A stretch of 64,000 nucleotides of DNA. Origin: Thermoflexus hugenholtzii. Lineage in GTDB: Bacteria; Chloroflexota; Anaerolineae; Thermoflexales; Thermoflexaceae. The first letter of the stretch is position 1. Each line of letters starts with the position of its first letter. Shown here piece by piece: positions 29,757-33,547 of the stretch. The notes beneath the pieces were generated by a model. That model searched no databases, was not told where the DNA came from, and saw only the letters and a list, made by a program, of their open reading frames with translations. A program made the translations under genes and the position numbers. The stretch lies in assembly GCF_018771565.1 (NCBI RefSeq), contig NZ_CP076326.1, positions 62,001-126,000 of the forward strand, given 5' to 3'.

Positions 29757-30938
29757 TCAAGGCGTGGGGGACTGGCCCTCGCACAACCGGAGGCCGCGCC
29801 GAGCGTTTTCCTCTTGAGGGGAGATGGCGAGGGCCTGCTCCAGCCAGGGGCGCGCAGCGGCGCAGTCCCCCAGATAGTAGTGGGAGAGACCCAGCAGGTA
29901 GGCCATCTCCACCAGGCGGGCGCAGCGCGGCTCCGTCGGCAGCGTCTCCGGGGCGCAGGTTTTCCCCTCTGCCCGGAGGACGGCCTGCAGCCGGGCGATC
30001 CCCCGCGGCAGATGGTTCGCGTCCACCACTTCCTCATACTTCCGCCGGGCGTAGAGGGTGACCCCCAGGTGATACAGAATCCGCCAGTCGTCCGGGTCTT
30101 GTTCCCGGGCCTTCCTCAAGGTTTGCTCCGCCTCCTCCAGCCGGCCCAGGTTGTAATACAGCCAGCCCAGCTCGTCCAGAACCCGTGGGTCCTCCGGCCG
30201 CAGGGCAGCGGCCCGCTGGAAGGCGTCCAGGGCGGCGGCGGTCTGCCCGAGGACCAGGGCGTTGCGCCCCAGGGCGAGCCAGGTCACCACCATCAGCGGA
30301 TCCCGGCGCAGGGCCTCCTGGTAGGCCGCCATCGCCTCCGCATAGCGCCCCAGGGTCTCGTAGACGTAGCCCAGGGCCCGGTGGGCGTCCGGCGAATCCG
30401 GGGCCAGGCTCAGGGCTTTCCGGGCGGCGGCCAGGGCGGCCTGCGGGCGATGGGCGTCGGCGTAGGCTTCTGCCAGATAAGCGTGGAGGGCGGCCTCCTC
30501 GGGAAGGCGGGCCACCGCCTGTTCCCCAGCCTGGATCGCCTCGGGGATCCTCCCCTGCCAGTCCAGGATCAACGCGGCCATCCCCAGAAGGCGCGGATCC
30601 TCCGGAGCCAGCCGGCGGCCTCGCTCCAGCCAGGCGGCGGCTTCCTCCAGGCGGTTGGTGAAGGCCAGGAGGCGGATCAGCGGGAGGTAACGCGCCGGGT
30701 TCTCCGGCTCCAAGGCCAGGGCGAGGCGGTAGCCTTCCTCCGCGCTCCGGAGGTCTCCCGCCTGATAGGCGGCCTCCGCCCGGCGGGCGTAGTGCGCGGC
30801 GGAGAGGGTCGGGGTGGGCGTCACGGCCATGGCGGGCATGCGTCCCCCGGCCCGCAGCCGCCAGTCCAGCGCGAACAGGGCGGACAGGGCCAGCAGATCG
30901 AGGAGCAGCCAGAGCAGCCAGCGCCGGCGTCGGGTCAT
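29757..30938 (-). CDS. membrane-anchored TPR-repeat protein
   Basis: 393-residue protein. Residues 1-35 form a signal anchor (RRRRWLLWLLLDLLALSALFALDW). About eight tetratricopeptide repeats follow (for example AYQAGDLRSAEEGYRLALALEPENP and ALGYVYETLGRYAEAMAAYQEALRRDP, here as landmarks). Such proteins act as scaffolds for envelope complexes. Its start overlaps the methylglyoxal synthase stop (ATGA), and it precedes the glycosyltransferase by 21 nt, so the three are probably one operon. Confidence 0.82.
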   Translation of the reverse strand: MTRRRRWLLWLLLDLLALSALFALDWRLRAGGRMPAMAVTPTPTLSAAHYARRAEAAYQAGDLRSAEEGYRLALALEPENPARYLPLIRLLAFTNRLEEAAAWLERGRRLAPEDPRLLGMAALILDWQGRIPEAIQAGEQAVARLPEEAALHAYLAEAYADAHRPQAALAAARKALSLAPDSPDAHRALGYVYETLGRYAEAMAAYQEALRRDPLMVVTWLALGRNALVLGQTAAALDAFQRAAALRPEDPRVLDELGWLYYNLGRLEEAEQTLRKAREQDPDDWRILYHLGVTLYARRKYEEVVDANHLPRGIARLQAVLRAEGKTCAPETLPTEPRCARLVEMAYLLGLSHYYLGDCAAARPWLEQALAISPQEENARRGLRLCEGQSPTP

Positions 30939-31309
30939 TCCTCCTCCAGGCCGCGCAGCACCATCGAGGCGGTGGCCAGGTTGGTGGCCAGGGGGATGTT
31001 GTGGACGTTGCACAGGCGCATCACCGTGCGGATATCCGGCTCGTGGGGGTGGGCGTAGAGGGGGTCGACCAGGAAGATCACCGCGTCGATCCGGCCTTCC
31101 ACCACCATCGCGGCGATCTGGGCATCCCCGCCCTGGGGGCCGGAGCGGACGCAGGCCACCTCCAGCCCCAGGGCTTCCTGGAGGGTGCGCCCGGTGGTGG
31201 CGGTGGCCACCAGCTGATGCCGGGCCAGGCGCTCCCGCTCCTGCCGGGCCCATTCGACCAGCTCCCCTTTCTTGCCGTCGTGGGCGATGATCGCGATCCG
31301 CTTGGGCAT
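30935..31309 (-). CDS. mgsA: methylglyoxal synthase
   Basis: Converts dihydroxyacetone phosphate to methylglyoxal and phosphate. The 124-residue protein has IAHDGKK at the N terminus, ATTGRT phosphate loop, SGPQGGDAQIA with the catalytic Asp, and CNVHNIPLATNLATA. The ATG at 31309 follows GGGAGG. The size is near the minimal family length. A longer upstream extension is open but not protein-like. First gene of a probable mgsA-TPR-glycosyltransferase operon. Confidence 0.93.
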   Translation of the reverse strand: MPKRIAIIAHDGKKGELVEWARQERERLARHQLVATATTGRTLQEALGLEVACVRSGPQGGDAQIAAMVVEGRIDAVIFLVDPLYAHPHEPDIRTVMRLCNVHNIPLATNLATASMVLRGLEEE

Positions 31310-31754
31310 GACTGCGATGCCTCCCGATTCGTTCTGAAGCCGCGCGGGAAGGTTCCCCTCAATGTTAACCCAGGTCCTCCGCCCGGCGGGAGCTCCACGC
31401 ATGAGAGGGCCCACTGCGGATCCTCCAGACCACACCGAGGAGAGATCGCTCCCCCGCTCGCCTGGTGGAAATCCCGGGGTGATGTGTGACCGGACCCTCT
31501 ATCCCTTCACCAGGAGCGGAGGCCGATGGGATCAAGGCCATCCGAACCCATGAGGGGGATCCTCGTTGGAAGGGATTGGAGGCCCTTGAGGGCTCGATAT
31601 CCGGTCTGCCGGTTTTGATTCGTCCCCCATAGGTTGCAGGGCACCGACGAGCGGTTGCCCACCTCCTCTTTTATCTGAAGGTGGAAACCGGCTCGTCCTG
31701 TCTGGAGAACCGGGAAATCCAGGCCGCTGCGGGCGTTGCCTTGCCTGCGCCATG
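31310..31754. other. gene-free stretch upstream of mgsA
   Basis: 445 bp between mgsA (leftward) and the promoter at 31755 (rightward). I see no convincing gene, repeat or terminator. A weak -10-like TTAACAT on the minus strand near 31360 could serve mgsA. Open frames here lack ribosome sites and known motifs. Confidence 0.5.
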
Positions 31755-31783
31755 TTGTTCGCCTGCGCACATTTTGCTATAAT
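31755..31783 (+). promoter_or_regulatory. strong promoter of the polyamine fusion gene
   Basis: TTGTTC (31755-31760), a 17-bp spacer and TATAAT (31778-31783), with TG at 31775-31776 forming an extended -10. Start of transcription would be near 31790, leaving a 234-nt leader before the ATG at 32024. Confidence 0.78.
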
Positions 31784-31789
31784 CAAAAC

Positions 31790-32023
31790 CTGCGGACCGG
31801 TGGGGAAAGCCGGCCGGGTTGGTGTGCAACTACGCGGCGTTGAGGCAAGCGACAACTCAATAGGCAGCCGTTCCGGCTTTTGGCATGCGTCGGGACTTCC
31901 GATGATGCCGGGTGCGGAACCCGTGCTGCCTATTTGCTTTGTAAGGGGACGGTGCGTGCGGAGCCGTCTCCGCTTCCGGGCGCCGGAAGGCGCCGCCAAC
32001 ATTCCGGGGAAAGGAGGTGAACA
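31790..32023 (+). promoter_or_regulatory. long structured 5' leader of bpsA-speD (candidate riboswitch or other RNA regulator)
   Basis: The leader contains a compound hairpin at 31859-31934. The outer stem is AATAGGCAGC/GCTGCCTATT (10 bp perfect). Inside it are GTTCCG/CGGAAC (31870-31875 with 31915-31920), GGCAT/ATGCC (31882-31886 with 31905-31909), and a terminal six-pair stem around a GACTT loop. Two further hairpins follow: GCGGAG/CTCCGC (31958-31973) and CTTCCGG/CCGGAAG (31973-31989). An optimal AAAGGAGGTG site lies 4 nt before the ATG. I do not recognise a known SAM, guanidine or polyamine-related riboswitch consensus. A separate small RNA is an alternative reading. Confidence 0.6.
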
Positions 32024-33547
32024 ATGGCGGGGGAGATCCTGACCCTGGGGCGCTCGGAGCTGGCCCGCCTCCTGCGCGCCATCGTGCGGGAGGGGGACCC
32101 CTGGCAGGCCGCCGGCACCGCTGGGCTTCCCTTTCCACGGGTGGTGGAGGGCGTCCAGCAGCTGCTCCGCCACGGGCTCCTGGCCTTCGACGGGCAGCGC
32201 CTGCTCCTGACGGACCGCGGCCAGGCCCTGGCCCGGGAGCTGGGCGTTCAGGTGGTGCCCGAGATCCGCTGCGCCGCCTGCGGGGGGACCGGGGTGGACC
32301 TGGGTTTCTTCACGGAGGTGACGCGGCGCTACGCGGAGCTGGCCCAGGGCCGTCCGGAGCCTCTGGCGGCCTACGACCAGGGCTATCAGACCATCGACTC
32401 GGTGATGCGGCGGGTCGCCCTCATGGTCGCCCAGGGGGATGTGGAGGGCAAAGACATCATCGTGCTGGGCGATGACGACCTGGCCAGCCTGGCCCTGGCC
32501 CTGACCGGGTTACCCCGCTCGGTCGTGGTGATTGAGATCGACCGCCGCCTTTGCGACTTCATCGAACAGGCCGCCCGCCGGGCCGGCCTGAACATCACCG
32601 TCTACTGCCGCAGCCTCACCGAGCGCCTCCCCACCGAGCTGCTCGGCCGCTTCGACACCTTCCTCACCGACCCGACCGAGACCGAGCACGGCCTGCTGCT
32701 CTTCCTGGAGAAGGGCTTCATGTGCCTGCGGAAAGGGGAGGGGCATGCGGGCTACTTCGGCATCACCCGCATCGAGTCCAACATCAGCAAGTGGCACGTG
32801 TGGCAGCGGGAGCTCCTCAGCCGGCACGCCATCACCTTCACCCACATCCTGCCGGACTTCAGTCTCTACGCCAACTGGGAGGACCCGGACGAGCAGCCCA
32901 TCCCGGATCTGCCGCCCTTCGCCCGCCCGGCGCGGACGCCATGGTATCGCTCGACCTTCTTCCGGGTGGAGACGCTGCCGGAGTTCCAGCCGCCGGAGGA
33001 CTACGTCATCGAGGGAGGGCGGGAGCTTTACGAGGACGAGGACGCCATCGATCAGGTGTGGCGCAGCCCGGATGTGGATATGGCCATCACCGCCTCGGTG
33101 ATGACCCCCGCGCCCACCCCGTTCCCCACCCAGCTCACCCTGGGCCGGCACATCATCGCCGAGTTCTGGAAATGCCGGAACCGGGAGCCCCTGCGCGGGC
33201 TGAAGCAGGTCCTGGAGCATGCGGTGCGTCGGGCCGGCGCCACCCTGCTGAACATGAAAATCCACCGCTTCGTCCCGGATGGGTTCTCCGCCCTGGTGCT
33301 CCTGGCGGAGTCCCACATCTCCCTTCACGCCTGGCCGGAATACGCCTACGTAGCCGTGGATGTGTTCACCTGCGGGGAGGCGGATCCGGAGGTGATCGTT
33401 GAGGTGCTCAAGGACTATCTGCAGCCCGAGGAGTCGGCCCAAATCACCCTGGAGCGCGGCCTGGGCCCCCTGATGGTCCTCCCCGCTCTGCGAGCGGAGA
33501 CGGAGACGCCTTCGCTCCGCTCCTCCGCCCTCCCGATGGGCGTCTGA
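32024..33547 (+). CDS. bpsA-speD: fusion of branched-chain polyamine synthase (BpsA) and S-adenosylmethionine decarboxylase (SpeD)
   Basis: 507-residue bifunctional protein. Residues 1-75 form a winged-helix-like start. Residues about 80-360 match BpsA (DUF43), the aminopropyltransferase that makes N4-bis(aminopropyl)spermidine: Cys83/Cys86, GDDDLASLAL (149-158), EIDRRLCDFIE, FDTFLTDPTET and GYFGITR. Residues about 370-480 match a class 1b SpeD proenzyme: LGRHIIAEFW, AESHISLHAWPEY with Ser430 as the pyruvoyl precursor after Glu429, and VFTCG with Cys450. SpeD makes decarboxylated SAM, which BpsA consumes, so the fusion joins producer and consumer. It is transcribed alone after a structured leader and ends at a 14-bp hairpin. 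SpeD homologues can also act on arginine or ornithine; sequence alone does not exclude this. Confidence 0.88.
   Translation: MAGEILTLGRSELARLLRAIVREGDPWQAAGTAGLPFPRVVEGVQQLLRHGLLAFDGQRLLLTDRGQALARELGVQVVPEIRCAACGGTGVDLGFFTEVTRRYAELAQGRPEPLAAYDQGYQTIDSVMRRVALMVAQGDVEGKDIIVLGDDDLASLALALTGLPRSVVVIEIDRRLCDFIEQAARRAGLNITVYCRSLTERLPTELLGRFDTFLTDPTETEHGLLLFLEKGFMCLRKGEGHAGYFGITRIESNISKWHVWQRELLSRHAITFTHILPDFSLYANWEDPDEQPIPDLPPFARPARTPWYRSTFFRVETLPEFQPPEDYVIEGGRELYEDEDAIDQVWRSPDVDMAITASVMTPAPTPFPTQLTLGRHIIAEFWKCRNREPLRGLKQVLEHAVRRAGATLLNMKIHRFVPDGFSALVLLAESHISLHAWPEYAYVAVDVFTCGEADPEVIVEVLKDYLQPEESAQITLERGLGPLMVLPALRAETETPSLRSSALPMGV

Follow-up and report, generated by a model that had tools for sequence, protein, structure and literature searches.

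What the 234-nt leader (31790-32023) ahead of bpsA-speD does, and what it might respond to, is the question raised by this locus, which lies in a window of 64 kb (the whole stretch of DNA that was analysed). The gene had been named bpsA-speD in a preliminary description of this DNA, and its identity was borne out by the finding of BpsA_C and AdoMet_dc within a single open reading frame, in which a branched-chain polyamine synthase domain is joined to an S-adenosylmethionine (SAM) decarboxylase domain. The enzyme both produces dcSAM and consumes it in the synthesis of branched polyamines, polycations thought to stabilise nucleic acids in thermophiles such as this host.

32024-33547, plus strand: bpsA-speD fusion gene, 507 aa, with domains BpsA_C at residues 98-341 and AdoMet_dc at residues 376-479

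The SpeD part carries an ESHIS motif, which we take to be that of the pyruvoyl self-cleaving SAM decarboxylases, so that the fusion protein may cut itself. Among 60 related genomes, the full-length fusion was found only in Thermoflexus (eight other genomes) and in G030, a genome of the same class and a different family, whose BpsA-SpeD protein is 74% identical. The genome also encodes a gene of the spermidine/spermine synthase family, through which the cell could make spermidine.

Within the leader, a conserved domain was delimited, which is predicted to fold as nested stems with an internal loop and to run into a U-rich tail.

31853-31943, plus strand: conserved core RNA domain (model R1), a compound hairpin of P1, P2 and P3 with flanks, from a ten-genome comparison and fold z-score
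31859-31868, plus strand: P1 5' arm AATAGGCAGC, pairing kept in 10 of 10 genomes, with one G-U variant
31870-31874, plus strand: P2 5' arm GTTCC, paired in G030 with a one-base register slip
31875-31881, plus strand: internal loop, 5' side GGCTTTT, with GCTT invariant
31882-31893, plus strand: P3 5' arm, GGCAT, one bulged base and CGTCGG, from the ten-genome comparison
31899-31909, plus strand: P3 3' arm CCGATG-ATGCC, from the ten-genome comparison
31910-31915, plus strand: internal loop, 3' side GGGTGC, with GGGTG invariant
31916-31920, plus strand: P2 3' arm GGAAC, from the ten-genome comparison
31925-31934, plus strand: P1 3' arm GCTGCCTATT, from the ten-genome comparison
31931-31943, plus strand: U-rich tail TATTTGCTTTGTA, terminator-like, directly after the G+C-rich part of P1, T-score 2.62, in the top 0.3% of window positions

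The outer stem is perfect, as first described, with 10 pairs between AATAGGCAGC (31859-31868) and GCTGCCTATT (31925-31934), and all three inner stems are present (GTTCC/GGAAC, GGCAT/ATGCC and CGTCGG/CCGATG), giving a compound hairpin of 26 pairs in total. The core (78 nt) has a fold z-score of -5.1, the lowest among 398 same-size windows sampled from both strands being -3.7, and no stretch randomly sampled from the window is predicted to fold more stably. The whole 234-nt leader scored -2.9 (200 shuffles) and, in a second run, -3.7, below all 200 sampled 234-nt windows of both strands (lowest -3.5). Since the shuffles keep dinucleotides, G+C content alone does not explain these scores. More structure had been claimed here than in other leaders of the window; the excess stands against the sampled random windows, a comparison that is not specifically one with other leaders. 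P1 is predicted to be formed at 37, 60 and 72 C and the core to be still folded at 72 C. Furthermore, P1 is flanked by A-rich sequence on its 5' side and U-rich sequence on its 3' side, and the T-score of the tail is 2.62-2.85. Based on these flanks and on the rank of the tail in the window, P1 and the tail may form a terminator enclosing the conserved domain; no run of six or more U occurs in TATTTGCTTTGTA.

The same core was found ahead of the same fused gene in nine Thermoflexus genomes (this one included) and in G030, about 140-210 nt 5' of the start codon in all ten leaders, so that the structured leader first described is conserved beyond a single family. The more distant Thermoflexus species differ from the window at 5-8% of core positions, against about 39% (37-44%) at four-fold sites of the downstream gene; within the genus, selection therefore acts on the core about as strongly as on the first two positions of codons. 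Between the window and G030, the divergence is 27% in the core and 59% at four-fold sites. Standard pairs occupy 98.7% of the core pair cells over nine distinct sequences, compared with 24-57% for slid versions. In these nine sequences no pair of the core is altered on both sides, because the core hardly varies; changes in the stems are A-U/G-U exchanges, save for G030, in which P2 (GTTCC/GGAGC) slips by one base and P3 (CATCG/CGATG) loses its closing pair. The observed changes agree with the core pairs but do not prove them. The terminal loop of P3 is variable whereas P1 and the loop letters GCTT and GGGTG are conserved, a receptor-like pattern, and in P1 it is the sequence that is kept, beyond pairing alone.

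The distribution of the core is narrow, with one copy per genome tied to one gene. A search with model R1 gave no other convincing match in 396 genomes of the class, 400 of the phylum and three others of the order of G030, and background scores only were found near bpsA or speD genes elsewhere in the phylum. A pattern search of contigs returned six records of Thermoflexus type and three unrelated ones, which were taken as chance matches and whose core-model score was not above background, and nothing was found in the viral contigs searched. In another genome of the class (G300, L035 1501-1545), a hairpin resembling a terminator lies next to a tRNA-like gene and shares GTGCTGCC...TTTTGCTTTGTA with P1 and the tail; it was rejected as a further copy of the core, being only a short hairpin with a P1-like stem and a GCTTTGTA tail.

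The leader does not belong to a known RNA family by Rfam match, as the preliminary description had supposed in recognising no riboswitch consensus. At gathering score, no family was placed on it in a search of the whole window, the Rfam 15 covariance models gave no riboswitch or 6S RNA match, and a search of 31600-32060 up to E = 10 gave no match of SAM class; weak matches to wcaG, malK-III and HOXA11-AS1_1 lie outside the core and far below gathering score. Like riboswitches, it is a structured and conserved leader, and its gene is metabolic. The spermidine riboswitch of Gram-positive bacteria, a variant of the SAM-I aptamer (Salvail et al. 2023, PMC10853860), likewise lies in the mRNA 5' leader of polyamine-synthesis genes, but it has a four-stem junction of SAM-I type, whereas the Chloroflexota leader is a single compound hairpin lacking the SAM-I consensus. 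The HMP-PP (thiS) riboswitch is a terminator-embedded aptamer (PMC6478431), in which receptor-like conserved nucleotides are also enclosed by a terminator-like stem with U-rich sequence after it; its genes, sequence and internal architecture are different, and the bpsA-speD leader has a weaker U-tract without a run of six U, no Rfam match and no pseudoknot shown. The odc1 (uORF-25-1) motif (PMC8632094) also precedes a polyamine gene, that of ornithine decarboxylase, but consists of one hairpin with a large loop and a pseudoknot near a uORF rather than of a nested three-stem hairpin. Among the open-licence papers searched, riboswitches are unmentioned in the main texts of one that deals with branched polyamines (PMC12979288) and one that deals with Thermoflexus metabolism (PMC8129789), and Chloroflexi are unmentioned in the RNA discovery papers on 26 and 50 genomes.

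The core is preceded by a promoter and a variable stretch and followed by further hairpins, which lead to the ribosome site.

31755-31783, plus strand: promoter with weak -35 TTGTTC, 17-nt spacer and extended -10 TGCTATAAT (31775-31783), from the sequence and equivalent -10 sites in nine of ten genomes
31784-31852, plus strand: variable 5' part of the leader, alignable only among the closest species
31945-31971, plus strand: hairpin 2, GGGGACGG/CCGTCTCC with an invariant 11-nt loop, in Thermoflexus only, all pairs kept through the variants
31979-31994, plus strand: hairpin 3, GGCGCC-GGAA-GGCGCC, in Thermoflexus only, with G-U variants in G006, G007 and G008 that keep pairing
32000-32020, plus strand: putative SD-sequestering element (C)ATTCCGGGGAAAGGAGGTGA, in which UUCC is predicted to pair with GGAG; G030 has an identical ATTCCGGGGAAAGGAGGTGA

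The promoter claimed ahead of the leader was recovered with its extended -10 TGCTATAAT, but its -35 is weak, and it escaped a generic sigma-70 scan. In eight of the nine other genomes an equivalent -10 site lies 5' of the core, the contig of the ninth having only about 240 upstream bases. The ribosome site is very strong, as stated before, with the SD AAAGGAGGTGA at 32010-32020 and ATG at 32024, and a conserved hairpin is predicted to conceal part of it. Of the two further hairpins described as perfect, hairpin 3 is so, while hairpin 2 has eight pairs, one of them G-T. Its four variants keep every pair, one through a compensatory change from G-C to A-U and the others through wobble. The proposed check for covariance yielded this one compensatory change, which with four distinct rows is no better than in shuffles, and none in the nearly invariant core.

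Both hairpins are absent from G030 (L011 1282-1500), the 3' leader part of which differs and has a hairpin GGGGAGG-AAGCAA-CCUCCUC, the 3' arm of which is a perfect anti-SD (ACCUCCU) that, by prediction, masks the SD at 37 C. This suggests, from the sequences, that expression platforms have been exchanged under a conserved core. A simple switch was considered in which CCGUUCC would pair with the 5' arm of hairpin 2 (CCGUUCC:GGRACGG). The sequences fit, and the best fold constrained in this way is 10-14 kcal/mol worse, with a probability of about zero even at 72 C; no mutually exclusive state is obvious among the predicted folds. Since P1 is predicted to form at all three temperatures and the alternative is so much worse, a classic equilibrium switch by opening of P1 is unlikely, and the predictions agree better with a decision taken during transcription, or with a rigid receptor that accommodates either a small molecule or a protein.

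Taken together, the bpsA-speD leader is very probably a real, conserved and undescribed structured leader, and it probably regulates bpsA-speD in cis. That it does so as a small-molecule riboswitch is the main reading, with a probability of about 45%. Transcription would start near 31789 and proceed into a compact, sequence-constrained receptor domain, P1/P2/P3 with its conserved internal loop, set inside a terminator-like hairpin; further hairpins would follow, as would a ribosome site that is enclosed in part by a hairpin of its own. A small molecule linked to the pathway would be bound at the internal loop between P2 and P3. A long or branched polyamine, spermidine, dcSAM, SAM or MTA may be considered, because SAM, dcSAM and spermidine are substrates of the enzyme and MTA and branched polyamines are products; from the gene context, a polyamine, dcSAM or SAM is the likely ligand of such a riboswitch. 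Binding would alter termination at P1 and the U-rich tail or, alternatively, access to the ribosome site, with the SD hairpin as output, and enzyme output would be matched to need. For this scheme we infer ligand binding, the identity of the ligand, the direction of the switch and the choice between transcriptional and translational control. The fuller proposal, a new class of riboswitch, seen to date in Thermoflexus and one related lineage alone, in which an aptamer set within a terminator-like hairpin responds to a polyamine that is branched or long (or to dcSAM) and controls BpsA-SpeD, is doubtful enough to be put forward only tentatively. If true, polyamines or their precursors would be sensed by a second kind of RNA, independent of and unrelated to the SAM-I variant of Gram-positive bacteria, which is the one convincing class of bacterial polyamine riboswitch in the open-licence papers searched.

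The core, being a stable hairpin whose internal loop is conserved and whose stem is invariant, could instead be bound by a protein, either BpsA-SpeD itself or another one of ribosomal or RNA-binding kind, with repression or activation of translation as the outcome. A short conserved hairpin could serve such a purpose just as well, the narrow distribution tied to one gene and the conservation of P1 in sequence agree with it, and in the N-terminal region of BpsA-SpeD (residues 34-69) there is a weak, sub-cut-off match to the winged-helix-like HemN_C. A compound hairpin of 26 pairs with an elaborate 3' part, however, exceeds most protein sites in size, and this explanation is rather unlikely. It is also improbable that the core is only an intrinsic terminator or attenuator, constitutive or growth-dependent, or the end of a short leader RNA, lowering read-through into bpsA-speD without a ligand. 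Such a role would account for the flanks of the G+C-rich stem and for the T-score, and the hairpin of G300 has the same stem and tail; yet a plain terminator needs neither a conserved inner loop nor a sequence-invariant stem, and its U-rich tail is typically stronger than the one found here.

Control by temperature through the SD hairpin, as in an RNA thermometer, is suggested by the thermophilic host and by a hairpin whose predicted partial opening falls between 60 and 72 C (mean unpaired 0.30-0.46 at 37-60 C and 0.41-0.60 at 72 C), but it leaves unexplained the conservation of a core that is predicted to stay folded at the highest of these temperatures, and it has little probability. Least of all should P1 be expected to be a DNA operator, a 10-bp inverted repeat bound by a transcription factor: its arms are almost invariant in sequence, but they lie 56 nt apart, G-T 'pairs' are tolerated and the inner loop is conserved as well. 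Among the genomes, the core lies at about 75 to 275 nt from the promoter, a roughly fourfold variation (the stretch between the two measures about 65 to 265 nt), which favours action in the transcript and, with the unalignable upstream leader, makes an operator at the promoter unlikely.

A leader peptide, MMPGAEPVLPICFV, read through P2 and P1, was rejected because its third codon positions vary no more than the others, one of the few changes (ATG to GTG in G006) is non-synonymous, a 1-nt indel just 3' shifts the frame and G030 alters many residues. On the minus strand, the divergent neighbour of the leader (30935-31435) has an MGS-like domain (methylglyoxal synthase-like). In the Thermoflexus leaders with a visible promoter, TGCGG occurs about 7-9 nt past the -10 box, among the first transcribed bases (31784-31800 in the window), and is shared although the remaining 5' part of the leader is unalignable.
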